Of a DNA stretch of 64,000 bases, positions 15,269-56,784 are shown piece by piece. The notes below the pieces were generated by a model. The model had not been told where the DNA came from, made no database searches, and saw nothing but the letters and a program-made list of their open reading frames with translations. Within the stretch, counting starts at the first letter, position 1. Each line of letters opens with the position of its first letter. This stretch comes from Sphingomonas piscis (GTDB taxonomy: Bacteria > Pseudomonadota > Alphaproteobacteria > Sphingomonadales > Sphingomonadaceae), in NCBI RefSeq assembly GCF_011300455.1, contig NZ_CP049869.1, forward strand, positions 930,001 to 994,000. The letters run 5' to 3'. The translations under genes and the position numbers were made by a program.

Positions 15269-15279
15269 CGGGATCCCAA
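15269..15279. promoter_or_regulatory. GGGATCCC operator upstream of gntR
   Basis: Core palindrome at 15270-15277, read CGGGATCCCAA on the plus strand. It lies 6 bases past the phhA stop and 40 bases before the gntR start. It is one of six full copies in the window, all between genes. Its position suggests that gntR has its own regulated promoter at the end of the aro operon. Confidence 0.65.
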
Positions 15280-15282
15280 AGC

Positions 15283-16140
15283 TCAGCGGCGAAGCGGCAG
15301 GGACACCGGCGTTCCTTCGACGTTCGACGGATCGAGATCTTCCAGCTCGTCGAGCTCGCGGCAGATCGCCGGCACGTCCTGGCCCTGCATCATGGTCAGC
15401 AGGTCCTCGAAGCGGTCGATCACAAAGTAGAGTTGCTGAAAGGCGTCGATGTCGTAGCGGGCGCGAAGCACGCTCTTGAGGTCGAAATTGAGCCGGCGCG
15501 GCTTCGGGCTCTCCAGCGAATAATGGACCTCGCTGAAGCTCGACAGGATCCCGGCGCCGTAGATGCGCAGCTGACTGTCCTCGCAGGCAAGCCCAAATTC
15601 CACGCTGTACCAATAAAGGCGGCTGAGGCGGTGCAACGAGCCGTTGGCGATGGCCTCAAGCCCAAGGTGGCCCAGTGCCTGCATCACGTCCGCTACCGCT
15701 GGGTCGGCCAGCAATGGCACGTGCCCGAACAGGTCATGAAACATGTCCGGCTCTTCCAGATAATCGAGCTGGTCGGCGGCGCGGATGAACACGGCGGCGG
15801 GGAACCGCTTTTGCGACAAGTGCCGGAAGAAGACATCGTCCGGCACGATGCCGGGCACGCCTACCACCTGCCAGCCGGTGCGGGTATGGAGCTTCTCGGA
15901 AAGCTCATCGAAATTCGGCACGCCGGGCCTGGACAGGTGCAGGACGTCGAGACCACGCTCGAACGCAGACACAGCGCGGCCATGAAGCAACGACTGCTGG
16001 CGCGCGAACAAAGTATCCCACACCCAGTGGTCGCCGGCGGTCAGCTCGTCCCAATGCTGCGGCACGGTCCAGTCGTCCGCAACGCCAGGGGGCGGCGATG
16101 GCGACGCAAGCGCGCCATGGAGATGATGTTCCTGGTTCAT
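15283..16140 (-). CDS. phhA: Phenylalanine 4-monooxygenase (phenylalanine hydroxylase)
   Basis: PhhA hydroxylates L-phenylalanine to L-tyrosine with tetrahydrobiopterin or another pterin, O2 and non-heme iron. The iron ligands are visible: H135 and H140 in FHDLFGH and E181 in YSVEFGL. The family stretches GVPGIVPDDVFF and RFPAAVFIR are also present. Length 285 matches bacterial single-domain enzymes. It is fourth gene position 3' of aroC and overlaps aroE by 4 bases (ATGA), so it is made together with the shikimate enzymes. As no tyrA is in the cluster, I infer that here it serves tyrosine synthesis and not phenylalanine breakdown. It is followed by gntR. Confidence 0.95.
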   Translation of the reverse strand: MNQEHHLHGALASPSPPPGVADDWTVPQHWDELTAGDHWVWDTLFARQQSLLHGRAVSAFERGLDVLHLSRPGVPNFDELSEKLHTRTGWQVVGVPGIVPDDVFFRHLSQKRFPAAVFIRAADQLDYLEEPDMFHDLFGHVPLLADPAVADVMQALGHLGLEAIANGSLHRLSRLYWYSVEFGLACEDSQLRIYGAGILSSFSEVHYSLESPKPRRLNFDLKSVLRARYDIDAFQQLYFVIDRFEDLLTMMQGQDVPAICRELDELEDLDPSNVEGTPVSLPLRR

Positions 16141-16979
16141 GATGTCCTCGTGGCGCCGGTGAGTAACGCGCGCAGCTCTTCGTCGGCTTGTGGCGGCTCG
16201 GTCCGGAAAAAGAGTTCGAAGGCGCTTCGGGCCTGGCCGATCAGCATCGTTAAGCCGTCGACCGGCTCGCCCCCTGCCGCGGCGCCGCGCCGGAGGAAGC
16301 CGGTTCGAAGCGGCTGATAGACCATGTCGAACAGGATGGTGCCGCGAGCGTTGTCCTCCACCGCCCGCAGCAACGGCTCGGGCATCGGTGGCAAACCGTC
16401 CATACCGAGCGGGCTTGCATTGACGATGAGGGCTGCATCGGCAAGCGCGTCATGAGCGGAATCCAGCGATGCGAAGTTCAGCGAGAGGTCTGGCGCAGCG
16501 CTGCGCAGCCCCTCGGCTTTCAAAGGATCGCGGGCAATGATCGTTACCTCGCTTGGCGAGCGCCCGGCCAAATAAGCCAGCATCGCCCGGGCCGCACCGC
16601 CCGCGCCAATCACGGCGACCTTGCGCGACCCAAGCGGTTTTTCGCCCAGCGCCGCGACGATTCCGTCGACGTCGGTGTTGTAGCCCCAGAGGCCATAGTC
16701 GGCACGGACCACGCAATTCACCGCGCCGATGGCCGCTGCGTCCGGCGAGACCTGATCGAGCAATGGCGCGATCCTCTCCTTGTGCGGGATGGTGACGTTA
16801 CATCCGCGCCAGTCCGGATCTGCGCGGCGCCCGTTGAGGTAAGCCGCAAGTCCAGCCGCCTCTACACTCTGCGCGCGATACTCACCCACGAGGCCAAGTT
16901 TCGACAGCCAGTGGCCATGCAGCGCCGGGCTTTTCGAGTGGGCGATTGGGTCGCCGATCACCTCGGCAAAAGGCGGCAT
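16137..16979 (-). CDS. aroE: Shikimate dehydrogenase (NADP+)
   Basis: AroE reduces 3-dehydroshikimate to shikimate. Substrate-site residues are seen in SKSPALHGHW and NVTIPHKE; the NADP-binding loop is GAGGAARAML near residue 122, and the closing helix GLTMLIGQARSAFELFF is conserved. Length 280 is standard. It overlaps aroB upstream (shared base at 16979) and phhA downstream by 4 bases. The DHQ dehydratase and shikimate kinase genes that act on either side of it are not in this window. Confidence 0.95.
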   Translation of the reverse strand: MPPFAEVIGDPIAHSKSPALHGHWLSKLGLVGEYRAQSVEAAGLAAYLNGRRADPDWRGCNVTIPHKERIAPLLDQVSPDAAAIGAVNCVVRADYGLWGYNTDVDGIVAALGEKPLGSRKVAVIGAGGAARAMLAYLAGRSPSEVTIIARDPLKAEGLRSAAPDLSLNFASLDSAHDALADAALIVNASPLGMDGLPPMPEPLLRAVEDNARGTILFDMVYQPLRTGFLRRGAAAGGEPVDGLTMLIGQARSAFELFFRTEPPQADEELRALLTGATRTS

Positions 16980-18079
16980 TAGCCGTTCCGATCCAGGAAG
17001 GCCGCAACGTCGGCCATGTCGACGGTACGGTCGACATAGGCCTGACCGATGCCGCGGCTGAGAATGAATGCGACCTTGCCGCCAGCCTTTTTCTTATCCG
17101 AGGCCATGTGTCGGGTCAGCACCTCGCCGCTTGCGGTGATCCCCGCCTCTGCAAGGCTCGTGGGCAGACCTACAGCGGCGAAGTGAGCACGTGTCCGCTC
17201 CGCATCATCGGCGCTGCACAGTCGCCGCTCAGCAGAGAAGGTCATCGCCTGCACGCACCCCAGCGCAACGGCCTCGCCGTGAAGCAGGCGTTCGGAATAG
17301 CCGGTCTCCGCTTCCAGCGCATGCCCGAAGGTATGGCCGAGGTTCAGGAGCGCGCGCTTGTCGCCAGTCTCCCGCTCGTCAGCGGCGACTATACGTGCCT
17401 TGCCGGCAACCGCTTTCTCGATGGCGTAACAGCGCGCCTCGAGATCGCCCTCGATCACCGCATGCCCGTTCGCCTCAAGCCAGACGAAGAAGTCCGCATC
17501 TTCGATCAAGCCGTACTTGGCGATTTCGGCATAGCCTGCGCGCACCTGGCGTGCATCGAGCGTGTCCAGCACTTCCGGGTCGATCAGCACCAGCGAGGGC
17601 TGGTGAAAGGCGCCGACGAGATTCTTGCCTGCCGCCACGTTGATGCCCGTCTTGCCGCCGACGCTGCTGTCCACATGCGACAGCAAGGTCGTTGGCACCT
17701 GCACGAAGCCGCAACCACGCTTGAGGATTGCGGAGGCGAACCCGGTTAGGTCGCCAATGACACCGCCCCCGAACGCAACAATATGCTCCGACCGCTCGAT
17801 CTCCAGCGCGAGCAGTCGGTCCATCAGATCGGCGAGCACGGTGAAGCTCTTGCTCCCCTCGCCTGCCGCCACGAGCACAGGGTTCACGTCGACGCCGTCG
17901 AGCGCTTCGGTAAGCCGCGCGCCTTGTGCGGCCCAAACTTGTTCGTCGCTGACCACCACCAGCCGGCCGCCGCGGATGAACGGCTGCAGCTGTTTGCCAG
18001 CCTGTTCGAGCAGCCCCGGCGCGATCCGAACCTCGTAGGCGCGATCGCCGAGCTCGACCGGAACCACCCTCATCCGCAT
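16979..18079 (-). CDS. aroB: 3-dehydroquinate synthase
   Basis: AroB cyclises DAHP to 3-dehydroquinate using NAD+ and a divalent metal. The signature [20 protein letters not shown], followed by [20 protein letters not shown], is present, and the metal-binding His residues are in [13 protein letters not shown] and HGEAVALG. Length 366 is normal. In many Alphaproteobacteria aroB is paired with aroK; here it is instead between aroC and aroE, overlapping aroC by 10 bases. Identification is certain. Confidence 0.96.
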
Positions 18080-19137
18080 TGCGCCCGATGCAACAGCTTC
18101 TGGTCCGCCAGCACCAGCGCCATCATCGCTTCGACGACCGGCACGCCGCGGATTGCCACGCAGGGATCGTGACGACCCTTGGTGACGATCTCGCTCGCCG
18201 CGCCGTCGCGGTCGACGGTCGGCACGGGCGTCAGGATCGAACTGGTCGGCTTGAAGGCCACCCGCACTACCACCGGCTGACCACTGGAAATGCCGCCCAG
18301 CACGCCGCCCGCATGATTGCTGCGGAAGGTGGGGCCATCCTCGCCCGGCTCCATCGCATCCGCATTCTGTTCCCCGCGCAGTCGCGCGGCTTCAAAGCCG
18401 TCGCCGATCTCCACGCCTTTGGCCGCGTTGATCGACATCATCGCGCTGGCGAGTTCGGCGTCCAGCTTGGCGTAGAGCGGAGCGCCCCAACCGGCTGGCA
18501 CACCCTCCGCCACGCACTCGACAACGGCACCGAGGGAGGAGCCTTCCTTGCGCACCTCGTCGAGCTTGGCAGCCCAGCGTTCGGCTGCGCGAGGATCGGG
18601 ACAGAAGAAGGGGTTTTGGTCGATGGCTTCGAGGTCCATCGCGGCGCGGGCGATCGGGTCGCCACCAAGCTCAACGAGGTAAGCCTTGATCGTGACGTCC
18701 GGGATCACGAGCCGCGCCACAGCCCCTGCCGCAACCCGCATCGCCGTCTCGCGCGCCGAGCTGCGACCGCCGCCCCGATAGTCGCGAAAACCGTATTTGA
18801 CGTCGTAGGTGTAGTCGGCATGGCCGGGCCGATAGCTCCCGGCGATGTCGGAATAATCCTTCGAGCGCTGGTCGACATTCTCGATCATCAGCCCGATCGG
18901 AGTGCCCGTCGTCTTTCCGTCGAACACGCCCGACAGGATCCTGACCTCATCGGGTTCTCGGCGCTGCGTCGTGAACTTGGATTGGCCGGGCCGGCGCTTG
19001 TCGAGCCAGGGCTGAATGTCCGCTTCGCTGAGCGCAATGCCCGGCGGGCAACCGTCGACCACCGCGCCGATCGCCGGTCCGTGGCTCTCGCCCCAGCTGG
19101 TGAAACGAAACAGGCGGCCGAAACTGTTGAAGCTCAC
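18070..19137 (-). CDS. aroC: Chorismate synthase
   Basis: AroC makes chorismate from EPSP with reduced FMN. Family signatures: [18 protein letters not shown] at the N-terminus, [30 protein letters not shown] and the C-terminal [12 protein letters not shown]-like stretch. Length 355 fits. It overlaps the prephenate dehydratase gene upstream by 4 bases and aroB downstream by 10 bases. Confidence 0.96.
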
Positions 19138-19658
19138 CGCGACACCACCACAAAGATCGTCTCATTGTCATCGCGGTCGTGCATGTCGCGTTTCAGCACT
19201 TCCAATCCATAAGCCTCTGCGGCGCTTTCCGAGGCCAGAACCGCGTTGGCCGGGTCAGCCAAACTCTGGGCCGCGGCCGCGGTATTGCTCGCTTCCTGCT
19301 GCTCAAGCCCAAGTTCGCCCAGGCTCCGGACGCACTGCTTCAACGCCATCGGATGGCTGACCGCAACACGGACCTTATCCAGCGCCGCGCCGGGAAGGCC
19401 GAGCAAGTGGATGCGGATAGGCAAGCGATGCTCGGCGACCACTTTGAGGCTGCTGGCGTCGATCAGCTCCTGTACCTCCGGTACGGTACCGGCGCTATTG
19501 TTGGCGCGCGGCAGGATGCCGATGTCGACGTCGCCATTCTCGACCGCGTCGATGACGTTGGCGAAGGTCGCCTGTCCGACCGGCTCGGCATCGGGCAGGA
19601 AAGTCAGGCATGCTTCATGGCTGAAGGCGCCGGGAACACCCTGGTAGGCGGCCTTCAT
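19134..19658 (-). CDS. pheA: Short prephenate dehydratase without ACT domain
   Basis: Prephenate dehydratase turns prephenate into phenylpyruvate, the last carbon-skeleton step to phenylalanine. The catalytic fold is complete: [13 protein letters not shown] at the start, [20 protein letters not shown], and [20 protein letters not shown] at the end. The protein stops there, at 174 residues, where family members normally continue into an ACT domain that binds phenylalanine. Two conserved spots differ: the usual IENS motif reads RANNS, and the TRF motif reads TIF. It may thus be insensitive to phenylalanine, altered in activity, or specialised. Overlaps with aroA and aroC place it firmly in the operon. 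The symbol is by function; the domain loss is seen directly. Confidence 0.85.
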
Positions 19659-20974
19659 CGGATGTCCGCCCCAAGGTTACGCATCAGCGGAAGGAAGGTG
19701 GGAAAGCTGGTTGCGATCATGCCGGCGCTATCCACCGCCACCGGCCGCTCCGCAACCAATCCGAGCACGAGAAAGCTCATCGCAATGCGGTGATCGTGGT
19801 GGGCAGCGACTTCGCCGCCACCTGCCGGCGGGCCACCAGCACCACGAACGGTGAGACTGTCCTTACCTTCCTGGTACTCGACGCCGCAGGCGCCCAAGCC
19901 CTCGGCGACGGCAGAAAGCCGGTCGCTTTCCTTGACGCGTAGCTCCTCGAGACCCGTCATGATTGTCGTCCCGCCCGCGCAGGCGGCGGCGATGGCGAGG
20001 ATGGGATATTCGTCGATCATCGACGGCGCGCGCTCGGCAGGTACCTCGACACCGGTCAGCGTCGATGCGCGGACGATGATGTCGGCCACCTGCTCGCCAC
20101 CGCTCGACCGCACGTTCCGATATTCGATGTCGCCGCCCATCTCCTTGAGCGTGGTAATCAGGCCAGTTCGCAGGGGGTTGATGAGGATGTTCGGCAGTTC
20201 AACCTCCGATCCCGGCACCAGCAGCGCAGCGACGATCGGGAAGGCTGCGGAGGACGGATCGCGCGGAACAATCACGTCGGTTGCCACCATGTCGCGGTGG
20301 CGGCCAAGCCGCACCGTGCCGCCCTCCTGCTCGACATCGACGCCGAAGGCGCGAAGCATGTTTTCCGTATGGTCGCGGCTCGGCAGCGCCTCGTGCACCT
20401 CGACATCGCCAACCGCCCGCAGGCCGGCCAGCAGGATGGCCGTCTTCACTTGCGCCGAACTTTTCACATTGTCGTAGCTGATGCCGGTCAGCGTGCCGCC
20501 ATGCACCGTTACCGGGAGGGTCGATCCCTCGGTGCGCGCGCCCATCTGACGCAACGGCCCGAGCACCCGCTCCATCGGCCGGCCACTAAGCGAAGCGTCG
20601 CCGGTGAAGGTCGCACGAATAGGCCATCCGGCCGCAGCGCCCATCAGCAGCCGTGCGCCGGTTCCGCTGTTGCCGCAGTCGATCGGCGCGTCCGGGCTCC
20701 GCCATTCGCTTCGGCTAGTCACGCGCCAGTGGCCGTCGCCGAGCCGCTCCACCTCCGCCCCGAACGCGCGAACCGCGGCGGCAGTATGAAGCACATCGTC
20801 GCCCTCAAGCAGGCCTTCGATGTTGGTCGTTCCCGCCGCCAGACCGCCGAAGATCAACGCCCGGTGCGAAATCGACTTGTCGCCCGGCACCTCGGCAACG
20901 CCCTTCAGGGGGCCGCAGCGATGTCCCTCGAGACGATCGGACGGCACCTCCGCGACCGCGCTCAGGCTACGCAC
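19655..20974 (-). CDS. aroA: 3-phosphoshikimate 1-carboxyvinyltransferase (EPSP synthase)
   Basis: AroA joins shikimate-3-phosphate and PEP. Motifs: GDKSISHRALIFGGLAAG, GNSGTGARLLMGAAAG, the RDHTENML site and the C-terminal HHDHRIAMSFLVLGL. Length 439 is normal. The likely start is GTG 20974, which overlaps the 3' end of the DAHP synthase gene by 13 bases; a later GTG is possible. The overlap indicates translational coupling to the first enzyme of the pathway. Confidence 0.95.
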   Translation of the reverse strand: MRSLSAVAEVPSDRLEGHRCGPLKGVAEVPGDKSISHRALIFGGLAAGTTNIEGLLEGDDVLHTAAAVRAFGAEVERLGDGHWRVTSRSEWRSPDAPIDCGNSGTGARLLMGAAAGWPIRATFTGDASLSGRPMERVLGPLRQMGARTEGSTLPVTVHGGTLTGISYDNVKSSAQVKTAILLAGLRAVGDVEVHEALPSRDHTENMLRAFGVDVEQEGGTVRLGRHRDMVATDVIVPRDPSSAAFPIVAALLVPGSEVELPNILINPLRTGLITTLKEMGGDIEYRNVRSSGGEQVADIIVRASTLTGVEVPAERAPSMIDEYPILAIAAACAGGTTIMTGLEELRVKESDRLSAVAEGLGACGVEYQEGKDSLTVRGAGGPPAGGGEVAAHHDHRIAMSFLVLGLVAERPVAVDSAGMIATSFPTFLPLMRNLGADIR

Positions 20975-22308
20975 GCGCTGTCCCCGGCCTTGTTCGCTAC
21001 CAGCCCGGCAAGCTCGTGCGCCACGTCAAGCGCCTGCTGTTCGTTGAGCCGGGGATCGCAATGCGTGAGATAGCGCAGCGGCAGGTCCGCTTCCTCAACC
21101 TGCACGCTTCCGCCCAGGCATTCGGTGACGTGGCCGCCGGTCATCTCCAGGTGAACGCCGCCCGGATGCGCACCCTCGGCGCGCGTGATCGCGAAGAAGG
21201 CGCTGATCTCCTTGACGATATCGGCCAGCATCCGCGTCTTGTGAGCGCCGGCGCTTCGCGTGTTGCCGTGCATCGGATCGATCGACCAGATCGCGTTGCT
21301 GCCCCGATCCTTGGTGACCTTGAGCAAGGTCGGCAGATGCTCCTCGACCTTTCCTGCGCCGAACCGCCCGATAAGGGTAAGGCGGCCCGGCTGGTTGTTC
21401 GGATCGAGAATGTCGATCAGCCGGTTGAGCTCGTCGGGGGACAAGCTCGGGCCGCACTTGAGGCCGATCGGGTTGGCAATGCCGCGGGCATATTCGACAT
21501 GGGCGCCGTCAACCTGTCGCGTGCGGTCGCCGAGCCATAGGAAATGGCCGGTCGTCGCCCACCAGCTTTCCGTCGCCGGGTCGAAACGGGTGAACGCCTC
21601 CTCATAATTGAGCAGCAGCGCTTCGTGGCTGGTGAACATGCTCACTGGCCGAAGCGGTGCCGAGAGACCCGCTTCATTGTGGATGCGGCGGAGGTCGGCG
21701 TAGGACGCCTCCGCGTAGGCAGCGAGCAGTTGCACCGTCACTTCGGCCTGGCGATGCGCCTCCAGCAGCCGCTTGGGATCGGGCACGCGGTCCTTCTCGG
21801 TGAAGGCCGGTCCGTTGACGGCATCTCCACGGTAGCTGGGCAAAGTCACCTCGCCTCGGGTCTCCGTCGTGGCGGAGCGCGGCTTGGCGAATTGGCCGGC
21901 GATGCGGGCGAGATGGACGACGTTGGTGCCGCTTTCCGCTTGCACCATGGCACCCATGCGCAGCAGCAGGTTGAAGGTTGTGCGCACCTTGTCGGCGCCG
22001 AATTCGGCGAAGCTTTCCGCGCAATCGCCACCTTGAAGCAGAAAGCTGCGGCGGGCGGACACCTGGGCGAGTTGCGCCTTGAGATGCTGGATGTCCGCCA
22101 CCGACACCAGGGCCGGGGCGGCCGCCAGCCTCTTTTCGATCCGCTCGGCGGCGGCCGAGTCCGGATAGTCAGGCAATTGCGCCGCTGGACGGTCGCGCCA
22201 CTGATGCGGCGTCCATGACCCGCCAACCTGCGCTTCCTCGTCCTGCGAGCCATGGACGAAAGGGTCGACATCTTCATCGGCAACCCGGCCGAATGCGTAA
22301 GCGATCGT
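20962..22308 (-). CDS. Class II 3-deoxy-7-phosphoheptulonate (DAHP) synthase, probably the C-terminal part of a fusion
   Basis: This segment encodes a class II (plant/mycobacterial type) DAHP synthase, which condenses PEP and erythrose-4-phosphate and starts the shikimate pathway. Motifs: LLQGGDCAESF, RIAGQFAKPRS, GLKCGPSLSPDE, IWSIDPMHGNT and MTGGHVTECLGG. The domain begins near 22224 (GGSWTPHQW), but no ATG, GTG or TTG stands in frame just before it. The first start in this frame, at 22449, lies inside chorismate mutase and reads nonsense. The frame is open straight up to the five-G run (minus strand, 22309-22313) at which the upstream chorismate mutase frame breaks. With one more G the two become one 624-residue protein. 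So this is best read as the second half of a chorismate mutase-DAHP synthase fusion. Confidence 0.88.
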   Translation of the reverse strand, partial: TIAYAFGRVADEDVDPFVHGSQDEEAQVGGSWTPHQWRDRPAAQLPDYPDSAAAERIEKRLAAAPALVSVADIQHLKAQLAQVSARRSFLLQGGDCAESFAEFGADKVRTTFNLLLRMGAMVQAESGTNVVHLARIAGQFAKPRSATTETRGEVTLPSYRGDAVNGPAFTEKDRVPDPKRLLEAHRQAEVTVQLLAAYAEASYADLRRIHNEAGLSAPLRPVSMFTSHEALLLNYEEAFTRFDPATESWWATTGHFLWLGDRTRQVDGAHVEYARGIANPIGLKCGPSLSPDELNRLIDILDPNNQPGRLTLIGRFGAGKVEEHLPTLLKVTKDRGSNAIWSIDPMHGNTRSAGAHKTRMLADIVKEISAFFAITRAEGAHPGGVHLEMTGGHVTECLGGSVQVEEADLPLRYLTHCDPRLNEQQALDVAHELAGLVANKAGDSACVA

Positions 22309-22835
22309 CCCCCGCCGGGCGTGCGAAGCGTCATGAAATGGCGAATGACATCGCCGTCGCGAAGGTGCGCCGGTAGGTGCGACTCCACGAGCGCGATCAC
22401 TTCGCCGCGGCGCGCTGCCTCCAGTGCCTCGTTCGGGCTCTCCACCCACTCAATGGGCGCCGCCGATCCGAACCGTGCCCGCGCTTCCTCCAGAATGGCC
22501 ACGCGGTTCTTGGGTGCACAGATGACGATCTTCATCGCCACTTGGGTCTGCAGTGCATGGCTCATCAGTGCGCGCCACAGCTGGTTCACCAGCGCCGGCG
22601 GAGTTGCTTTAGCCTGTCGGGTCAGCCGGCCCACGACATGAGCCTCGCGGGTCGGCCGATATTTCAGAAGCCCGGGAATCGTCGCCGCCTTGGCGCTCAC
22701 CACCTTCTTCGCGATGGTCAGCCGGTCTTCCACGAGGGCGAGGATCTTCTCGTCGATCGCATCGATGCGACCGCGCAATTCCTCAAGGGATTCCTGCCGG
22801 GCTTCTTCCGACAGACGTTCATTCAATGGTGGCAT
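22309..22835 (-). CDS. Chorismate mutase (AroQ type), frameshifted 3' end as read, probable N-terminal part of a fusion
   Basis: An AroQ helical chorismate mutase converts chorismate to prephenate. The domain is seen at about residues 15-100: LRGRIDAIDEKILALVEDRL, then RPTREAHVVGRL and LWRALMSHALQTQ. A second region (about 105-175, MKIVICAPKNRVAILEEAR and on) resembles the extra domain of alphaproteobacterial chorismate mutases. After TPGGG the frame as read gives a long unrelated tail, while the expected continuation (TIAYAFGRVADEDVDPF) is in the DAHP synthase frame. ATG 22835 is preferred over ATG 22865 because of the family N-terminus, but neither has a strong Shine-Dalgarno. It is the first structural gene of the aro operon, 80 bases after the leader peptide. 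Confidence 0.85.
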
Positions 22836-22915: not shown

Positions 22916-22996
22916 TCAGGCGTACCGGCCCATAAAGAGCGCGAAATAATAGGAGCGCTGCCAAGGCATCGAGGTCTGAACCCGTCCTTCGGTCAT
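22916..22996 (-). CDS. Aromatic-residue-rich leader peptide of the aro operon
   Basis: A 26-codon ORF in front of the operon, with a strong AGGAG Shine-Dalgarno (23009 to 23005, minus strand) 8 bases before its ATG. Six of 26 residues are aromatic: W12, Y16, Y17, F18, F21 and Y25, concentrated in the second half (PWQRSYYFALF). This is the usual design of a regulatory leader on which ribosomes stall when charged aromatic tRNAs run short. It ends 80 bases before the chorismate mutase ATG. I do not see a hairpin followed by a T-run after it; a perfect CCGCATGCATGCGG palindrome (22856-22869) lies just before the gene start. Control may therefore be translational or Rho-linked and not classical attenuation. 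Confidence 0.8.
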   Translation of the reverse strand: MTEGRVQTSMPWQRSYYFALFMGRYA

Positions 22997-23062: not shown

Positions 23063-23080
23063 AATATGGGATCCCAAATT
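23063..23080. promoter_or_regulatory. GGGATCCC operator between the aro operon and proBA
   Basis: Core at 23068-23075 within AATATGGGATCCCAAATT. Read towards aro it lies 72 bases before the leader peptide start and runs into a -10-like CATATT; read towards proB it lies 43 bases before the ATG. A degenerate second copy (minus strand CTTGGGATGG, 23051-23060) is close by. Either or both divergent operons could be controlled. Confidence 0.65.
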
Positions 23081-23118: not shown

Positions 23119-24261
23119 ATGGCTCAAGCCGCCGCCCTGACCGACAGCCTCGCCGCGTCTTTGATCGGACGCGCGAAGCGGCTCGTGGTGAAGGTTGGCT
23201 CCTCCCTGCTGATCGAGCGGGGGCAAGCCCGCGAAGCGTGGCTGGCGACGCTTGCCAGCGATATCCACGCACTCACCAGTCAGCAGAAGCAGGTGGTGAT
23301 CGTCTCTTCCGGTGCGGTTGCGCTCGGGCGTTCCTACCTCGGCATGAAGGTGACCAGCCGGCTCGACCAGAAACAGGCGGCGGCGGCGGCGGGGCAGTCG
23401 CTCCTGATGCAGCATTGGCAGCAGGCCTTTGCGCCGACCGGGACGCGGGTTGCCCAGTTGCTGCTGACGCTCGATGACACGGAGCAACGCCGCCGCTGGC
23501 TCAATGCTCGCGCGACGCTTGAAGTGCTGCTCGGCCAAGGTGCGCTGCCCGTCATCAACGAGAATGACAGCGTCGCCACCGATGAGCTCCGCTATGGCGA
23601 CAACGACCGGCTGTCCGCACGTGCGGCGCAAATGGTGCAGGCCGACGCCCTGTTACTGCTATCGGACGTCGATGGCCTCTACAGCGCCGACCCGAGCGCT
23701 GACCCAAACGCCCGTCACATCCCGCACCTCAGCGATGTGGATGCCGACAGTGAGCGGGCAGCGTCCGGAGCGAAAAGCGGTGGCGTGGGAACGGGCGGCA
23801 TGCGGACGAAGCTGATGGCGGCCTCGGTCGCGCGCGGGTCCGGCTGCACGACGATCATCGCAAGCGGCAAAGAGGACCACCCGATCGGACGATTGCTGAA
23901 CGGCGCTCGGGCGACGGTGATCAGCGCGCCGGGCACGCCCGCAACCGCCTACAAGCAATGGATAGCGGGCGCACTGGCACCGGCCGGAACGCTCACTCTC
24001 GATCACGGTGCGCTGGCGGCGCTGCAATCCGGCAAGAGTTTGCTGCCGGCTGGGATAACGAGCGTGTCGGGCGACTTCTCCAAGGGTGCCTGCGTTGCCG
24101 TAACCGACACGTCGGGAGCGGAGATCGCGCGAGGGGTCGTGAACTACTCGTCCCGCGACATCGGCCTGATCAAGGGCCAGGCGACCGACCGCATCGAGGA
24201 ACGCCTGGGCTACCGCGGCCCGGATGTCGTCATTCACCGCAACGATCTGGTCTTGAAATGA
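23119..24261 (+). CDS. proB: Glutamate 5-kinase
   Basis: ProB phosphorylates glutamate, the first step of proline synthesis. The amino acid kinase domain has VVKVGSSLL near the start, VSSGAVALG, NENDSVATDELRYGDNDRLSA and SDVDGLYSADP; the C-terminal part (about 285-375) is a PUA domain with SLLPAGITSVSGDFSKG. Length 380 is typical. The stop overlaps the proA ATG (ATGA). It is divergent from the aro operon, and a GGGATCCC palindrome stands 43 bases before its start, so it may share that control. Confidence 0.95.
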   Translation: MAQAAALTDSLAASLIGRAKRLVVKVGSSLLIERGQAREAWLATLASDIHALTSQQKQVVIVSSGAVALGRSYLGMKVTSRLDQKQAAAAAGQSLLMQHWQQAFAPTGTRVAQLLLTLDDTEQRRRWLNARATLEVLLGQGALPVINENDSVATDELRYGDNDRLSARAAQMVQADALLLLSDVDGLYSADPSADPNARHIPHLSDVDADSERAASGAKSGGVGTGGMRTKLMAASVARGSGCTTIIASGKEDHPIGRLLNGARATVISAPGTPATAYKQWIAGALAPAGTLTLDHGALAALQSGKSLLPAGITSVSGDFSKGACVAVTDTSGAEIARGVVNYSSRDIGLIKGQATDRIEERLGYRGPDVVIHRNDLVLK

Positions 24262-25490
24262 GCATGGGAGAGCAATTGCTGCAGCTTGGACAACAGGCGC
24301 GCGAGGCCGCCAACCAGCTGCGGATCCTCTCGGCCGACACTCGGTCCGAGGGCATCCGCGCCATGGCAAGGAAGGTGCGCGACAGCGTGGCGGAGATCGT
24401 CACGGCCAATGAGGAGGACATGGGGGCGGCCACGCAGAACCTCGATCGCCTGATGCTGAACGAGGCACGGGTGTTCGCCATCGCGGATGCGCTCGACGAG
24501 GTGGCGGCGCTACCGGATCCCGTCGGTGCCGAGATGTCGCGATGGCAGCGGCCGAACGGACTCGACATCGCCCGAGTGCGCACGCCCATCGGCGTCATCG
24601 GCATGATCTACGAAAGCCGGCCTAACGTCACGGCCGACGCCGCGGCCATCTGCATCCGGTCGGGCAATGCGGTGATCCTGCGCTCCGGCTCCGACGCGCT
24701 GAACAGTTCGCTGGCGATCCATCGCGCGTTGCAGGCAGGGCTCGCCGAGGCGGGGCTGCCTATCCATGCCGTGCAGTTGGTCGACACGCCGGACCGCGCC
24801 GCCGTCTCGGCACTGCTCGGGGGGCTAAACGGCAGCGTCGACCTGGTCATCCCTCGCGGTGGCAAGGGGCTGGTCCAGCGAGTGCAGGACGACGCGAAGG
24901 TGCCGGTGCTGAGCCACCTCGAAGGCGTCTGCCACACCTATGTTCACAAAGCTGCCGACCCGGAGAAGGCAGTCAGCATCGTCCGCAACGCCAAGATGCG
25001 CCGGGTCGGCATCTGCGGCGCGACCGAATGCCTTCTGATCGACGTGGACATAGCGCCTTCCCTGCTGCCGGGCATTGCGGCGGCGCTCGAAGGCTGCGAA
25101 CTACGCGGCGACGATCGCGCCCGAGCCATCGTGGGCATGAACAGCGCAACGGAAGAGGATTGGGGCAAGGAATATCTCGCCCCCATCCTCGCCATTCGGG
25201 TCGTCGACGGTCTTGAACAGGCCATCGACCATATCGCCACCTATGGCACAGCACATACCGAAGCGATCATCACCGAGGATGCGGCGACCGCTGAGACCTT
25301 CCTTAACGAAGTCGATAGCGCCATCGTCATCTGGAACGCCTCGACCCAGTTTGCGGACGGGGGCGAGTTCGGTTTCGGTGCCGAGATCGGCATCGCCACA
25401 GGCAAGATGCACGCTCGCGGACCCGTAGGGCCGGAGCAGTTGACCAGCTTTCACTATCTAGTGCGCGGCGACGGGCAAGTCCGGCCTTAG
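24258..25490 (+). CDS. proA: Glutamate-5-semialdehyde dehydrogenase (gamma-glutamyl phosphate reductase)
   Basis: ProA reduces gamma-glutamyl phosphate with NADPH to the semialdehyde that cyclises to pyrroline-5-carboxylate. Motifs: GVIGMIYESRPNVTADAAA, LRSGSDALNSS, and the catalytic-Cys region VLSHLEGVCHTYV; the C-terminal ALDH-like closing motif is FGFGAEIGIATGKMHARGPVGPEQLTSF (in two pieces). Length 410 is normal. ATG 24258 overlaps the proB stop. ProC is not in the window. The gene ends tail to tail with the beta-helix gene with two bases between. Confidence 0.95.
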   Translation: MSMGEQLLQLGQQAREAANQLRILSADTRSEGIRAMARKVRDSVAEIVTANEEDMGAATQNLDRLMLNEARVFAIADALDEVAALPDPVGAEMSRWQRPNGLDIARVRTPIGVIGMIYESRPNVTADAAAICIRSGNAVILRSGSDALNSSLAIHRALQAGLAEAGLPIHAVQLVDTPDRAAVSALLGGLNGSVDLVIPRGGKGLVQRVQDDAKVPVLSHLEGVCHTYVHKAADPEKAVSIVRNAKMRRVGICGATECLLIDVDIAPSLLPGIAAALEGCELRGDDRARAIVGMNSATEEDWGKEYLAPILAIRVVDGLEQAIDHIATYGTAHTEAIITEDAATAETFLNEVDSAIVIWNASTQFADGGEFGFGAEIGIATGKMHARGPVGPEQLTSFHYLVRGDGQVRP

Positions 25491-29727: not shown

Positions 29728-29739
29728 GGAGAACCGACG

Positions 29740-41258: not shown

Positions 41259-41259
41259 G

Positions 41260-44788: not shown

Positions 44789-44791
44789 CGC

Positions 44792-45865
44792 ATGGCGAAG
44801 ATCGTCATCCTTGCCGGCGACGGCATCGGTCCCGAAGTTGCGCGTGAGGCGGAAGCCTGCCTGCGCCTGATCTCGGGCGCGCGCGGGCTCGGGCTTACTT
44901 TCGAGGACCACCTGTTCGGTGGCGCCGCAATCGATGCGTCAGGCGATCCGTTTCCGGAAGAAACGCAGCGTGCGTGCGAGAACAGCGACGCCATCCTGCT
45001 CGGCGCCGTCGGTGGACCCAAGTGGGACGGCGGCTCGGTTCGCCCCGAAGCCGGCCTGCTCAAGATGCGCGGCACGCTCGGCCTGTTCGCCAACCTGCGT
45101 CCGGCGCGCACCTATGCTGGCCTGGAAAGTTTCAGCCCGCTTCGCGCAGACATCGTCAAAGGCGCGGATATGCTGGTGGTGCGTGAACTCACCGGCGGCC
45201 TGTATTTCGGGGACAAGGTTGAGGGCACGGAAGAAGCCTCCGACCTCTGCACCTACTCGCGCGGCGAAGTCGAACGGATCGCCCGCGTCGCCTTCGAAGC
45301 GGCCCGCAAGCGGCGCAAGAAGGTCACCTCGGTCGACAAGGCCAACGTCCTCGCCACCTCGCGCCTCTGGCGACGCGTGGTGACGGAGGTTGCGACCCAA
45401 TATCCCGATGTCGAGCTGGAACATGCGCTGGTGGACTCCACTGCCATGGCGCTCATCACCCATCCCACGCGCTTCGACGTGATTCTAACTGAGAATCTCT
45501 TCGGCGACATCCTCTCCGACGAAATGTCGGTAATCGGCGGCTCCATTGGCCTGCTCGCGTCGGCCAGTACCGGCACCACGGGCACTGCCGTGTTCGAGCC
45601 CATCCACGGCTCCGCGCCTGACATCGCCGGGCAAGACTTCGCCAACCCCGCCGGCGCGATCGCTAGCGCGGCAATGCTGCTCGACCATCTTGGTCACTCG
45701 GCGGAAGCCCGCATCCTTGAGGCCGCTGTCGAACAGGCGATAGCCGGCGGCTTCCGCACCCGCGACCTCGGTGGTGGAACCCGCTGCAGCGAGTTCGGTG
45801 AGCAGGTTCGCTTGTCTGTCGACGCGCAGCTGACCGCCAATCAGCCGAAGCTGGCCAGCGCATGA
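44792..45865 (+). CDS. leuB: 3-isopropylmalate dehydrogenase
   Basis: LeuB oxidises and decarboxylates 3-isopropylmalate with NAD+. Motifs: [44 protein letters not shown] and the metal site [21 protein letters not shown]. Length 357 is standard. It overlaps leuC by 4 bases. Confidence 0.96.
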
Positions 45866-47319
45866 CCCAGCGCCCCCGCACCCTCTACGAGAAGATCTGG
45901 GATGCGCACGTCGTCGAGCGCCGCGACGACGGCACCTGCTTGATCTACATCGACCGCCACCTGGTTCACGAGGTCACCTCGCCGCAGGCGTTCGAAGGTC
46001 TGCGCATGGCCGGCCGTAAGGTGCGCCGCCCCGACCTGACGCTCGCCGTTGCCGACCATAACCTGCCGACGACCGCGCGTGTCGACACGGAGGGCAATCG
46101 CCTTCCCATCGCCGACCCGGCGAGCGCCGAGCAGCTTCGCACGCTGGAGGCCAACGTCGCCGAGTTCGGCGTCCCGTACATCGACGCCATCGCCGCCGAG
46201 CAGGGCATCGTCCACGTCGTCGGCCCGGAGCAGGGCTTCACCCTTCCCGGCACCACCGTCGTCTGCGGCGACAGCCACACCGCCGCGCATGGCGCGATGG
46301 GCGCGCTGGCGTTCGGCATCGGCACCAGCGAGGTCGAGCATGTGCTCGCCACGCAAACGCTTCAGCTCGCGCCCTCCAAGACGATGGAGATTCGCGTCGA
46401 AGGCGAGCTCGGCTTCGGCGTCAGCCCCAAAGACGTGATCCTTGCGGTGATCGGCCGCATCGGGGCGGCGGGCGGCACCGGCTATGTACTCGAGTTTCGC
46501 GGAAGCACCTTTGAAGCGATGAGCATCGAGGGCCGCCTGACCGTCGCCAACATGGCGATCGAGGCCGGTGCCCGCTCCGGCCTGTTCGCCCCGGACGAAA
46601 AGACCTTTGCCTATCTCAAGGGTCGCCCCATGGCGCCCACGGGCGAAGCCTGGGACAGCCAAGTCGCCTATTGGCGCACATTGCCGACCGACGACGGTGC
46701 GCGCTTCGACGCCAGCGTCGTCATGAACGCCCGCGACATCGCGCCGACCGTCACCTGGGGCACCAGCCCCGAAGATGTGGCGCCGATCACCGGCAGCGTT
46801 CCCGCCCCGGAAAGCTTCGCCGACCGTTCCAAGCAGGAAGCCGCCGCCAAGTCGCTCGCCTACATGGGCCTGTCTTCCGGCCAGGCGCTTCAGGACGTCG
46901 CCATCCAGCACGTCTTCATCGGCAGCTGCACCAACAGCCGTATCGAGGACCTTCGCGCTGCAGCCGCGGTTGTGCGCGGCCGCAAGGTTGCCGACGGCAT
47001 CAAGCAGGCGCTGATCGTTCCCGGCTCCGGTTTGGTGAAGCGGCTCGCCGAAGCTGAGGGCCTGGACCGAGTCTTCACCGACGCAGGCTTCGAATGGCGC
47101 GAGCCCGGCTGCTCCATGTGCCTCGCCATGAACCCGGACAAGGTGCCGGCGGGCGAGCATTGCGCCTCCACCTCCAACCGTAATTTCGTCGGCCGCCAGG
47201 GGCCCGGATCGCGCACTCATCTCGTCTCACCTGCGATGGCCGCCGCTGCCGCCGTGACCGGCCGCCTCACCGACGTCCGCGACCTGATGCGGGGCAACGC
47301 TGGGGAGATGGCCGCATGA
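45862..47319 (+). CDS. leuC: 3-isopropylmalate dehydratase, large subunit
   Basis: The aconitase-like subunit that carries the 4Fe-4S cluster and isomerises isopropylmalate together with LeuD. Cluster Cys are in FIGSCTNSR and [32 protein letters not shown] is also typical. Length 485 fits. It overlaps leuB and leuD by 4 bases each. Confidence 0.96.
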
Positions 47320-47875
47320 CCCCCGTGGAGCGGATCACCGGTCGCGCCATTCCGCTTGGCCGCAAGAACGTCGACACCGACGTCATCATCGGCGCGCGGC
47401 ACCTCAAGACCATCGTTCGCGCCGGCCTCGGCCAGCACGCCTTCGAGACCATCCGCAGCGAGCCCGGCAACGTGTTCGACGACGAGCGTTTCGCGGATGC
47501 CCCTATCCTCATCGCCGGCGACAACTTCGGCTGCGGCTCGAGCCGCGAGCATGCCGCCTGGGCGATCCGCGACCTCGGCATTCAGGCGGTGATCGCGCCC
47601 AGCTTCTCGGACATCTTTTCCGGCAACGCGTTCAAGAACGGGATCGTCCCCGTAGTGCTGCCACAGGCGGCCATTGACCATCTGCTGGAGGTCGCGCAGG
47701 AACATGAACTGACCGTCGATCTCGACACGATGTCGGTCACTTCGCCGCTGCAGGACCGGTACGAGTTTCAGATGGACCCCTTCCGGCGTGAATGCCTGAT
47801 GGGCGGTCTCGATGAAATCGCCCTGACGCTGGCCAGCGAAGCGGCGATCCGCGCTTATGAAGTGAGAGTGGGAAT

Positions 47876-47879
<4 letters not shown>
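47316..47879 (+). CDS. leuD: 3-isopropylmalate dehydratase, small subunit
   Basis: The swivel subunit of isopropylmalate isomerase; 187 residues, with [30 protein letters not shown] and [18 protein letters not shown]. It overlaps both leuC and gltB (ATGA with gltB), so the coupling of the leucine genes continues directly into glutamate synthase. Confidence 0.95.
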
Positions 47880-52483
<4,604 letters not shown>

Positions 52484-52504
52484 GCTTATAGGGACAAGAA
52501 GACA

Positions 52505-53908
52505 ATGGGTGACCCCACAGGCTTCCTGAAGGTTGAACGCCAGGACCGGACCTACCGGCCCGCGCAGGAACGCGTCACGCACTACAAGGAATTCGTGATC
52601 GACCGCGATCCGGAGACCTCGCGCAAGCAGGCGTCGCGCTGCATGGACTGCGGCATTCCCTTTTGCCACAGCGGCTGTCCGGTCAACAATCTGATCCCGG
52701 ACTGGAACGACCTCGTCTACAAGGACGATTGGAAGACCGCGATCGACCGCCTCCATGAGACCAACAATTTCCCGGAGTTCACCGGCCGCATCTGCCCCGC
52801 GCCGTGCGAGGCGAGCTGCACGCTCAACCTCCAGGACACACCGGTCACCATCAAGTCGATCGAATGCGAGATCGCCGACCGAGCGTTCGATGAGGGCTGG
52901 GTCAAGCCGAAGATGGCGCCGCGCGGCACCGGCAAGCGCATTGCCATCGTCGGCTCCGGCCCGGCCGGTATGGCCTGTGCGCAGCAGCTCGCGCGTCATG
53001 GCCACAACCCGACGGTGTTCGAGAAGAACGACCGAATCGGCGGCCTGCTTCGCTACGGCATCCCCGACTTCAAGATGGAAAAGCATCTGATCGACCGCCG
53101 CGTCGCGCAGATGGAAGCCGAGGGCGTGATCTTCCGCACCGGGGTCAACGTCGGCGTCGACATCCCAGTGCAGCGGCTGATGGACGATTACGACATCCTC
53201 ATCCTCGCCGGCGGGGCCGAAAAGCCGCGCGACCTGAAAGTGCCGGGCCGCGAGCTCGAAGGCACCTATTTCGCGATGGAGTTCCTGACCCAGCAGAACA
53301 AGCGCAACGCCGGCGATCCGGAAGAAAAAGCCGCTGGCAATCGCACCATCTCGGCCAAGGGCAAGCATGTGGTCGTCATCGGCGGCGGCGATACCGGCTC
53401 CGACTGCATCGGCACCTCGCATCGCCACGGCGCGGCGTCGGTCACCCAGCTGGAGATCATGCCGGAGCCGCCGCTAAAGGAGCAGAAGCTGCTCACCTGG
53501 CCGCACTGGCCGATGAAGCTCCGCACCTCCTCCAGCCAAGAAGAAGGCGCCGACCGCGAATTCGCCATCGTCACCAAGGAACTGATTGGCGAGAACGGCC
53601 ACGTTACAGCCCTCGTGTGCGAGCGCAACGGCGAGCGGGTCGAATTGAAGGCTGACCTCGTCCTGCTGGCCATGGGTTTCACCGGACCGTGCATCCCCGG
53701 CGCCGTCGAGCAGGCGGGCGTCGACCTCACGGAACGCGGCAATGTCGATGCGGCTTTCGGCGAATTCCGCACCTCCAACCCGCGCATTTTCGCGTGCGGC
53801 GACATGCGCCGTGGACAGTCGCTTGTGGTCTGGGCGATCCGCGAAGGCCGCGACTGTGCTCGCTCGGTGCACGCGCAGCTATCCGCAGTCGCGCGGCAGG
53901 CGGCGTAA
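52505..53908 (+). CDS. gltD: Glutamate synthase (NADPH), small subunit
   Basis: GltD takes electrons from NADPH through FAD to GltB. The N-terminal Cys-rich 4Fe-4S region is [17 protein letters not shown] plus CPAPCEASC; the FAD loop is [15 protein letters not shown] and the NADPH loop [13 protein letters not shown]. Length 467 is normal. It starts 21 bases after gltB behind GGGACAAGAAG. Confidence 0.96.
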
Positions 53909-53930
53909 TCTCAGCAAAACGGGGGCAATC

Positions 53931-56605
53931 ATGAACCAACTCACCCCCGAACGCCGCCCTGGCAGCATCGGCCAGAACCCGGACGTCCGCTATCTGGGAC
54001 GCCTGCTCGGGGACGTCATCCGCGACCAGTGCGGCGCCGCGATGTTCGAACGGATCGAGCATATTCGGTCCGCATCCGTCGACCGCCACCGGGGCGTCGA
54101 GGTCGCGGACCAGGGGCTCGACGATCTCAGCCTCGACCAGACGCTGACCTTCGTCCGCAGCTTCATGCTCTTCTCCATGCTCGCCAACTTGGCCGAGGAC
54201 CGGCAGGGGGTGGCCAGGGAAGCCGGTGCGACCGTCTCGGAAGCGCTGGAGATCTTGCAAGAGCAAGGCATCGGTTCCGACGCCATCCTCGACCTTCTCA
54301 AGAAGTCCCTGATCGTTCCGGTGATGACGGCCCACCCGACGGAGGTGCGGCGCAAGTCGATGCTCGACCACCGCAACCGCATCGCGGCGCTGATGCTAGA
54401 GCGTGACGCCGGCCGCGAAGAGAACGAGGACGGCGACCTGGTCGAGCAGGCGATCGTCCGCCAGATCGCGCTGCTTTGGCAGACTCGCCCGCTACGCCGC
54501 GAGCGGCTCTACGTCGCAGACGAGGTCGAGACCGCCCTCTCCTACTTCCGCGATGTGTTCGTTCCGGTGCTGCCGATGCTCTACTCGCGGTGGGAGCGGG
54601 TGCTCGGCCACCGCCCGCCCGGCTTCCTTCGCCTCGGCAGCTGGATCGGCGGCGACCGCGACGGCAATCCATTCGTCACTGCGGGGTCGCTGGAACTGGC
54701 GTTAGGTCGGGGCTGTCAGGCCATCCTCGACCATTATCTGGACGAGGTTCATGCACTCGGGGCCGAGTTCTCCGTGTCCAGCGAGCTGGCCGAGGTCTCG
54801 CCCGGGCTGCAGGCGCTCGCCGATTCCGCCGGGGACAGCGGCCGCGCCCGATCCGACGAGCCGTACCGCCGCGCGATAACGGGTATCTACGCGCGGCTGT
54901 CGGCGACCTACCGCAGACTCGTCGGCAAGGATCCCGTGCGGACCGAACGTGTTCGGGGGAGGCCTACGTCGATGCCGCAGAGTTTCGGGCCGACCTCAAG
55001 ACGATCGCGCATTCCCTTGCTCCTGGCGGCGAAGGGGCAATGGCTGGCACGGGCGCGCTCGGCCGCCTGATCCGCTCGGTCGAGATCTTCGGCTTCCACC
55101 TCTTCACCCTCGACCTTCGGCAGAACGCCGACGTTCACGAGCGCGTCGTTGCCGAACTGCTGGCCCAGGGTGGAGTCGAATCGGATTATCTTGCGCTTGG
55201 CGAAGAGGACCGCGTCCGCGTGCTCCGGCAGGAACTCGCCAGCCCCCGCCTTCTGGTCAACGCCTTCGTCGACTACAGTGAGGAAACGCAGAGCGAACTC
55301 GCCATCGTTCGCGCCGCGGCGGAAGCGCACCGCAAGTACGGACCGACATGCATCACCACGTACATTGTTTCGAAGAACGACAGCGTCTCGGACCTGCTGG
55401 AGGTCAACCTGCTGCTGAAGCAGGCCGGCCTCTGGTCGCCCGGCCCGCCGCCCAAGGCCGCGATCATGGCCGTGCCCCTGTTCGAAACCATCGAGGATCT
55501 CGTCGCGGCACCGGGCGTCATGACGGATTGGCTCGCGCTTTCTGAAGTGGCCGGCGCAACGCGAGCGCGCGGCTATCAGGAAGTTATGCTCGGCTATTCT
55601 GACAGCAACAAGGACGGCGGCTACCTGACCTCGGTGTGGAGCCTCCACCAGGCCAGCCGTGCATTGTGCGACGTTTTTGCGAAAGCGGACGCGCACATGC
55701 AACTGTTCCACGGCCGCGGCGGCGCGGTAGGCCGCGGCGGCGGCTCCAGCTTCTCCGCCATTCGCGCCCAGCCCAAGGGAACGGTGCAGGGCCGCATCCG
55801 CATCACGGAACAGGGCGAAGTCATCGCCGCCAAATATGGCACTCGCGAAAGCGCCGCCGCCAATTTGGAATCCATCGCCTCCGCCACCCTGCTCGCCAGT
55901 CTTGAGCAGCGTTCCGACCGACGCCGCGAGCGCTTCTACGGCGAAATGGCGAAGATATCGGATGTGGCGCGCGCCACTTACCGCGGCCTGGTCTATGAGA
56001 CGCCCGGCTTCGTCGAATTCTTCCGGTCGATGACTCCGATCGCCGAGATCGCGGAACTGAAGATCGGCTCCCGTCCCGCCAGCCGCACCAAGTCGACAGC
56101 CATCGAGGACCTTCGCGCCATTCCCTGGGTGTTCAGTTGGGCCCAGGCCCGCGTCATGCTGCCAGGCTGGTTCGGCGCAGGCCACGCGCTTGCGCAGGCC
56201 GACGAGGCCTTGCTCAAGGAATATTACGAAGCCTGGCCATTTTTCCGAACGTCGGTCGACAATCTGGAAATGGTGCTCGCCAAGTCGGACATGGACATTG
56301 CCGCCGCTTATTCGGAGCTGGTGCCCGACCCTGACCTGCGCACCGCTTTGTTCACCCGCATTCGGGATGGATGGTCGATCACACGCGATGCGATCCTGAA
56401 GATCACGGACCAGAATTGGCTGCTGGAGAAGAACCCGGCGCTCGACGCCTCCGTCCGGCTCCGCCTTCCGTATGTCGAGCCGCTGAACCGTCTACAGGTC
56501 GAGCTTCTGAAGCGTCACCGCGCCGGAGAGAGCGATCCCCGAATCAGAGAGGGAATCCACCTCTCCATCAATGCGATCGCGACCGCGCTTCGTAACTCAG
56601 GCTGA
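53931..56605 (+). CDS. ppc: Phosphoenolpyruvate carboxylase, frameshifted as read
   Basis: Ppc carboxylates PEP to oxaloacetate, refilling the TCA cycle for aspartate- and glutamate-family synthesis. The catalytic His motif VMTAHPTEVRRKS, GSWIGGDRDGNPFVT, GYSDSNKDGGY and the FHGRGGAVGRGGG loop are all present, but in two frames. The first frame runs to 55070 and turns to nonsense after ERVRG; the second carries the rest (EAYVDAAEFRADL and on) to 56605. Adding one G to the five-G run at about 54955-54959 joins them into 891 residues, the normal length. I read it as one intact gene with a consensus error. ATG 53931 lies 22 bases after gltD behind GGGGG; it is the last gene of the ilv-leu-glt unit. 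Confidence 0.9.
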
Positions 56606-56610: not shown

Positions 56611-56627
56611 GCAAACGGGATCCCAAA
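56611..56627. promoter_or_regulatory. GGGATCCC operator after ppc, upstream of the porin-glnK-amtB block
   Basis: GCAAACGGGATCCCAAAA with core 56617-56624. The left flank GCAAA matches that of the thr and ilv sites. It lies 6 bases past the ppc stop and 183 bases before the porin start. Confidence 0.6.
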
Positions 56628-56645
56628 ACGGCTTCGCCTTGGAGC

Positions 56646-56719
56646 GTTGCTGCTGCGCTGCAACAGAGCGGAACCTCGTAACACACGTGAAATATTGACG
56701 CCGCGTTGTGCGGCGCAAC
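56646..56719. promoter_or_regulatory. Two GTTG...CAAC inverted repeats and a possible -35 box
   Basis: GTTGC (56646-56650) faces GCAAC (56660-56664), and a second repeat GTTGTGCGGCGCAAC covers 56705-56719. TTGACG at 56695-56700 could be a -35 element with the second repeat in the spacer. The first repeat matches the element at 6031-6050 beside lrp. I see no clear sigma-54 box or NtrC site, which one might expect before glnK-amtB. Confidence 0.4.
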
Positions 56720-56772
56720 ATGCCTATGCACTATGCCCCTGGGTTTCAGTGCCGGAGCCCTGCTGCCGGCGC

Positions 56773-56784
56773 CGGGATCCCAAA
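56773..56784. promoter_or_regulatory. Second GGGATCCC operator, close to the porin start
   Basis: CGGGATCCCAAA with core 56774-56781, 26 bases before the porin ATG. Two sites about 157 bases apart before one gene could allow looping. Confidence 0.6.

Follow-up and report, generated by a model that had tools for sequence, protein, structure and literature searches.

A palindromic operator shared by amino-acid biosynthesis operons of a patchy Sphingomonas island, and its probable GntR/FCD reader

The subject of this study is a 64,000-nt stretch of the Sphingomonas piscis genome (the window; positions 930001-994000 of the 2.718-Mb single contig), in which one palindrome, GGGATCCC, recurs in front of operons for amino-acid biosynthesis and nitrogen assimilation and in front of gntR, a gene for a GntR/FCD regulator of 239 aa (14511-15230, minus strand). 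By computation we found that these sites are conserved at orthologous promoters and co-occur with gntR, that the regulator belongs to a known protein family, and that the ilvC gene of the cluster has a descent at odds with that of its host. We consider it probable that WTGGGATCCCAW is the operator of this GntR protein, a member of the VanR subgroup of FCD regulators acting mainly as a repressor, and that its regulon lies on a patchily distributed, partly foreign island. For the wider proposal, a travelling island that carries its own VanR-subgroup GntR, has recruited resident genes (asd, his, glnA, zwf and TonB-type receptors) and sets one switch over several attenuators, the balance tips modestly in favour.

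Operator copies in the window and across the genome

The window contains six copies of GGGATCCC, starting at 15270, 23068, 27714, 40013, 56617 and 56774. These are the positions reported by a first-pass annotation of the same DNA, and all six copies lie outside called genes, as it had also observed, in a window of which 7.1% is non-coding. Its estimate of about two chance copies in 64 kb is close to the 1.54 expected from dinucleotide shuffles, in which six copies were reached once in 100. Among the 256 palindromic 8-mers, only GGGATCCC has more than three intergenic copies in the window (6/6), and the 16 identical bases described around the thr and ilv copies are present. Intergenic or coding status was assigned with a simple purpose-made gene finder, so some gene calls are uncertain.

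One copy (15270-15277, in the context TACGGGATCCCAAAG) lies 39 bp from the gntR start and likely reflects autoregulation. The next (23068-23075) separates a divergent aro block on the minus strand (15283-22835; chorismate mutase/3-deoxy-D-arabino-heptulosonate 7-phosphate synthase, aroA, a short pheA, aroC, aroB, aroE and phhA) from proB-proA on the plus strand (23119-25490). The copy at 27714-27721 precedes thrA-thrB-thrC-ilvE (27970-32881, plus), and that at 40013-40020 stands between ilvD (minus) and the run ilvC-ilvG-ilvM-leuA-leuB-leuC-leuD-gltB-gltD-ppc (40245-56605, plus), with a weaker second site, GACAGGATCCCAAA, on the ilvD side (39885-39898, minus; genome 969885-969898). Two copies precede the operon for the torF porin, glnK and amtB (56807-59432, plus): one at 56617-56624 and another at 56774-56781, which is 157 bp, or about 15 DNA turns, from the first and 25 bp before the start codon.

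In the whole genome the bare core occurs 34 times, with 16 of the 34 copies intergenic where non-coding sequence makes up about 11% of sampled DNA (binomial p 1.4e-7). The statement that the core is never found inside a gene is therefore true of the window (6/6) and fails genome-wide, where 18 copies are coding. The longer form TGGGATCCCA is intergenic in 6/6 cases, as are 10 of the 11 core copies followed by A; the eleventh, before zwf, is inside the gene called just ahead of it, at that gene's 3' end. When flank was compared with coding status within this genome, a Fisher test gave only p 0.045. We take the functional form of the operator to be about WTGGGATCCCAW.

The proposal that a shared operator joins aromatic, proline, threonine, branched-chain and nitrogen-assimilation genes is well supported by the conserved promoter sites described below. 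It was too broad in one direction, in that it had the operator mark the whole cluster: a scan of the window placed no GGGATCCC in front of its arg, lysA and cys genes. It was too narrow in the other, since the cluster targets stand and the regulon is predicted to extend past them, to asd, his, glnA, cysE, zwf and TonB-type receptors. A site lies 70 bp ahead of the asd start, and others outside the window precede zwf, a cysE-like serine acetyltransferase gene and two genes resembling TonB receptors, one with just a weak match to its best-scoring receptor family. Ahead of glnA (at 50 bp) and of hisG-hisD (at 307 bp) are sites imperfect in one flank (gene names assigned from sequence). Copy 1948023 precedes a gene that reads like a DegP-type protease, and the non-coding copies at 461828, 637407 and 2520335 either lack a clear target or belong to possible missed genes. 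TonB-receptor-like genes with the operator about 160-240 bp upstream are found both in the S. piscis genome (L003, L021) and in S. parva (L223, L225, so named from sequence), which hints that nutrient uptake is part of the regulon.

Several neighbouring features were recorded in passing. The pheA gene is short (174 aa; 19134-19658, minus) and its NCBIfam match aligns with roughly the first two thirds of prephenate dehydratase, so the C-terminal regulatory part is seemingly absent; pheA matches in the related genomes G003, G004 and G009 are similar in span. An ArgR arginine repressor gene (3213-3680, plus) adjoins argJ-argB-argF and has a 50% homologue in the G004 stretch. Between the thr and ilv blocks (32878-38188) lie genes for a Gfo/Idh-type dehydrogenase, formate-tetrahydrofolate ligase, an SDR dehydrogenase and a GH43 glycosidase, perhaps a later insertion. 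Genes resembling trpA, trpB, trpC(F) and trpD, named from sequence, lie about 10 kb past the right edge of the window (L278:10531-14903, minus), and the 20-kb stretch that holds them has no operator within two mismatches.

Conservation with gntR and descent of the island

An orthologue of gntR (65-69% identity) is present in 4 of 36 same-genus genomes (G003, G004, G009 and G010), making five carriers in the genus with S. piscis itself. Named orthologues are those of S. parva, S. daechungensis, the metagenome-assembled genome (MAG) Sphingomonas 340R, whose gntR locus matches that of G003, and an Acetobacteraceae MAG (49%). G004, G009 and G010 have the same gene blocks, whole or in part. A word count made with no preset motif over the ilv, thr, aro/proB and torF promoter regions of the carriers (17 regions, 7307 bp) ranked GGATCCC first, with occurrences in 17/17; in 300 first-order simulated sets the maximum for any 7-mer was 11/17, the regions being orthologues of four promoters rather than independent samples and the simulations being free of kinship.

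Individual sites were scored by mismatches to TTGGGATCCCAA. Before thrA a site within three mismatches is present in all five carriers (S. piscis, G003, G004, G009 and G010), and S. parva also has a site there. Upstream of the island ilvC all five have one with one to three mismatches (four of them within two), always 234-259 bp from the start. The aro/proB site is within three mismatches in 4/4 carriers whose block lay in the DNA read, with orthologous sites in G003, G004 and G009 and one before aroG in S. parva, and the torF site in the three carriers read (S. piscis, G009 and G010). The native-type ilvC, by comparison, has a match within two mismatches at 1 of 25 loci from genomes lacking gntR and in none of four genomes that have it. 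At asd, an operator within three mismatches is present in two of the five carriers and in 0/11 non-carriers; asd looks like a resident gene recruited later. Exact TGGGATCCCA is intergenic at 2 of 26 gntR-minus loci versus three of four gntR-plus ones, in a comparison that read one site per genome.

S. parva has six exact copies of TGGGATCCCA, four of them in front of thrA, aroG and two genes that resemble TonB receptors, and two coding. The Acetobacteraceae MAG (3.3 Mb) has just two, both upstream of its gntR orthologue (at 0.4 and 1.1 kb), one before the gene preceding gntR and the other within that gene. Sites lie upstream of gntR in S. piscis, 340R/G003 and G010. No site within two mismatches was found on the loci of distant GntR homologues (37-43% identity, L167-L172). 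The conservation in relatives that the first-pass annotation had proposed as a check is seen where this gntR and the island genes occur, and does not extend across the genus.

Two other origins for the site were considered and rejected. A genus-wide operator independent of GntR was set aside because the exact 10-mer is mostly coding in genomes lacking gntR (24/26 loci), often as part of a recurring LVNWDPK context, which we take from sequence to be valS. An operator brought in by an outside donor was also rejected: the nearest ilvC loci of another class (L173-L181, n=9) have at best four to five mismatches, and among all 29 ilvC loci of this check only L184 came within two.

The genes themselves have a patchy distribution among close relatives. 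Island-type IlvC (71-76% identity) was found among 37 genomes solely in the gntR carriers, that is, S. piscis and the same 4/36. Native IlvC (44-48%) is kept in four of the five carriers and is missing from S. piscis; two of the 37 genomes gave no hit. In an IlvC tree of 59 rows, which held no other alphaproteobacterial IlvC, the island proteins form a clade (Shimodaira-Hasegawa-like approximate likelihood ratio test, SH-aLRT, 99) whose neighbours among the rows belong to another class (93), with the native proteins in a separate clade (100), and among the matches listed same-family IlvC is just 54-55% identical. On this phylogeny the island ilvC appears foreign to the genus. For aroC, compared in 16 genomes, the conflict with the host is one of identity: carriers with the aro block have the island type only (79-82%), and G010 and other non-carriers with a hit have the native type (65-74%). 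Two genomes, G014 and G029, both at least 99% complete, gave no aroC match at E<=1e-40; they are possibly aromatic auxotrophs, or their aroC is very divergent.

A tree of the single gene asd (15 genomes, 15 of 16 rows, G012 being left out) does not recover the carriers as one clade and forces at least two changes, with G010 pairing with the non-carrier G016 (99/98). Of 396 genomes sampled from the order, seven gave a gntR match at E<=1e-35, only that of S. piscis exceeding 43% identity, and no further close gntR was found in these 396 or in 385 genomes of the class; both samples were evenly drawn, and the four other carriers were absent from the matches there. A plasmid-borne close gntR was also looked for and discarded, all 805 matching plasmid records being below 60% identity. 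Because the block is patchy, shares one operator and encodes a regulator inside it, genes and master control seem to spread together.

A VanR-subgroup GntR as the candidate reader

The first-pass annotation had treated gntR as one target among others. The site 39 bp before its start bears this out, but the target role is only part of the picture, as GntR itself is likely the regulator. The protein has an N-terminal GntR winged helix-turn-helix (wHTH; Pfam 1.1e-15) and a C-terminal FCD domain (1.3e-16), both above gathering scores. Its AlphaFold model (mean predicted local distance difference test score 85.2) has six effector-domain helices between residues 82 and 228, the number found in the VanR subgroup. 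The nearest solved structure by sequence is 6z74 (E 3.8e-26), which we take to be Atu1419. The best NCBIfam match, PhnR (TIGR03338), reaches 101.5 bits against a cut-off of 271.5.

In PMC7797058, FCD subgroups are defined by helix number, the FadR subgroup having an extra linker helix, and Atu1419 is described as a tetrameric VanR-subgroup repressor of a 10-bp palindromic site with an essential G3 contacted by Arg45. The same paper gives its zinc ligands as Asn137/His141/His192/His214, proposes methylenetetrahydrofolate (N5,N10-methylenetetrahydrofolate) as effector and reports looping of sites that lie 190 bp from each other. The equivalents in the window GntR are R51 (DNA contact), N144, H148, H199 and H221 (metal) and R92 and Y140 (pocket), all invariant in a seven-row alignment; pocket residue Asn221 is replaced by S228. 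N144 and the three histidines would make up the Asn-plus-three-His metal site of the subgroup, as predicted from sequence, and the protein fits the VanR subgroup. Since the sites and gntR co-occur, sites stand upstream of gntR and the protein family fits, the operator is most probably read by the window's own GntR.

Promoter geometry suits repression at thr and ilv. A TTGAC box begins 27-28 bp before the operator in the thr promoters of five genomes (S. piscis, G004, G009, G010 and S. parva); the operator would therefore cover the -10/start region. At ilv a CTTGC...CATA pair was seen by eye just upstream of the operator in several genomes. In S. parva the aro operator lies just behind a TTGAC box, between it and a possible -10. 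The two torF sites, 157 bp apart, would suit a looping tetramer. Because the sites entering the site logo were selected for their core, conservation of its core columns is built in.

Leader peptides rich in the regulated amino acid stand downstream of the operator, and a global switch therefore appears to be stacked on pathway-specific attenuators at his, aro, thr and ilv. The aro leader, MTEGRVQTSMPWQRSYYFALFMGRYA (22916-22996, minus), is rich in Phe and Tyr and has counterparts in G004, G009 and S. parva, with none clear in G003. A Thr/Ile-rich open reading frame (27770-27877, plus), followed by a stem-loop and a T run, precedes thr, as do short Thr/Ile-rich ones in G004, G009 and G010. The ilv leader is MMVISNAAALSRVALLLDLINVREGGV (40075-40158, plus); leaders rich in Ile, Val and Leu occur in G009 and G010, and none was listed in G004. 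Terminator-like hairpins were recognised by eye at the thr, ilv and his leaders; a terminator scan listed none at thr and one at ilv, on the plus strand, and the leader search returned no Rfam family at gathering score. A very clear his leader peptide, THHHAHVHAR (L267, G000 194478 region), was also seen before hisG, behind an operator-like site.

We propose that the window GntR would sit on or beside core promoters as a repressor, through WTGGGATCCCAW, and would leave the DNA when an effector binds in its metal-containing FCD pocket. Because effector-bound GntR would be released, starvation or nitrogen/one-carbon status could open many biosynthetic operons at once, and the downstream leader-peptide attenuators of his, aro, thr and ilv may then adjust each pathway individually. 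The regulator, its operators and the target operons would together form one amino-acid biosynthesis island, patchy in the genus and at least partly foreign, which may have replaced native genes in places; genes outside it (asd, his, glnA, cysE, zwf and TonB-type receptors) would come under the same control through sites of their own. From the family and the targets one may guess at a folate, 2-oxoglutarate or some other carboxylate as the effector.

A number of observations count against this model. The bare core is coding in 18 of its 34 genomic copies, and the non-carrier G035 has a two-mismatch match at -509 of its ilvC (L126), about chance level. Only two of the five carriers have the asd site. 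Directly upstream of gntR, no site within two mismatches is present in G004, G009 or S. parva, and one of the two sites in the Acetobacteraceae MAG is within a gene. A promoter scan returned no sigma-70 consensus at aro/pro/thr or ilv, and the leader RNAs fold barely better than shuffles (z -1.6 for thr, -1.8 for ilv). As for mobility, there is no tRNA in the window, L277 or L278, and inspection by eye of the translated starts in the stretches read turned up no integrase.

It is possible, though we think it unlikely, that GntR binds these sites as an activator of the biosynthetic operons, in the way that FadR activates at fabA. In S. piscis the asd and aro operators end 1-3 bp short of what could be a -35 box, near -41/-45, a placement that would suit an activator as well. 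Elsewhere the geometry opposes activation: the thr operator falls over the -10/start region in five genomes, the aro operator of S. parva lies between its TTGAC box and a possible -10, and the second torF site is 25 bp before the start codon. The solved relative, too, is a repressor according to PMC7797058. A different reader is clearly improbable. The sites could be real operators of the Lrp/AsnC protein encoded next to the cys block (5486-6010, minus), which has Lrp/AsnC domains and, as a further point against GntR, orthologues at 66-67% identity in the G004 and G009 stretches. Lrp proteins are global amino-acid regulators with degenerate sites, and the sharp 10-12 bp palindrome fits a VanR-subgroup GntR better. 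Moreover, 120 kb of G010 holding the thr, ilv and torF sites and gntR contains no Lrp orthologue (the rest of G010 being outside the search), and the Acetobacteraceae MAG locus, where both exact sites lie beside gntR, gave no Lrp hit.

The patchiness could also reflect many losses of an island ancestral to the genus rather than transfer, and a single-gene asd tree cannot separate gain from loss. We regard this as fairly unlikely given that in the 59-row tree, which held no other alphaproteobacterial IlvC, the island IlvC clade (99) groups beside another class (93) and the native clade (100) stands separately, that native ilvC persists beside island ilvC in four of five carriers and that the carriers do not form one clade on the asd tree, where at least two changes are forced. 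Clustering of GGGATCCC by chance or composition, as for any BamHI-like palindrome, has next to nothing in its favour beyond the one shuffle in 100 that reached six copies; it is contradicted by conservation at orthologous promoters (GGATCCC in 17/17) and by the near absence of the site from native counterparts, and with the uniqueness of the core among the 256 palindromes simple chance was rejected.

Significance and relation to known systems

Taken together, the results suggest that one FCD/VanR regulator governs core anabolism across pathways and travels with the genes it governs, which makes testable how a foreign regulator turns global. One genus includes carriers and non-carriers as well as partial carriers (among them G010, with the thr, ilv and torF sites and a native aroC), resident genes can be compared where the site is present and where it is absent (asd, in 2/5 carriers), and a defined operator can now be used to test orthologues of the window GntR. 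A search of the open-access literature, with RegPrecise and subscription journals outside it, found no description of such a regulon. What is new is how large the regulon is, that it serves anabolism and that it travels with an amino-acid island; the protein family had been described before.

The familiar role of FCD/VanR regulators is that of a local switch, mostly for catabolism. Atu1419/VanR of Agrobacterium fabrum, one such switch (PMC7797058), resembles the window GntR in its GntR wHTH and FCD domains, in a 10-bp palindromic operator with G at position 3 (the proposed one in the case of the window GntR), in its zinc ligands and in most of its effector-pocket residues. Likely autoregulation in some carriers is a further resemblance, and the paired torF sites would suit the looping of a tetramer. 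The operator here is TGGGATCCCA and not ATGTATACAT, however, the targets are dispersed anabolic operons rather than one catabolic cluster, and Ser228 takes the place of pocket Asn221. PhnR-type GntR proteins (TIGR03338) supply the best NCBIfam match, but with a score far under the cut-off, and no phosphonate genes are among the targets seen. With Lrp and other global amino-acid regulators the system shares the principle of one regulator for many biosynthetic pathways and nitrogen assimilation, although it uses another protein family and a sharp palindrome.

Leader-peptide attenuators control his, thr, ilv and phe operons in Gammaproteobacteria. The leaders described here are likewise rich in the regulated amino acid and have terminator-like hairpins by eye; unlike those attenuators, they are stacked under one shared upstream operator and match no Rfam family at gathering score. 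Attenuation of trp and pheA is named in PMC5343134. Finally, the island can be set beside systems of lateral transfer. Whole-pathway operons, such as trp operons, are known to have been laterally transferred, and as in those cases foreign pathway genes seem to lie beside native ones or to replace them; the present island differs in bringing many pathways together under a dedicated shared regulator.

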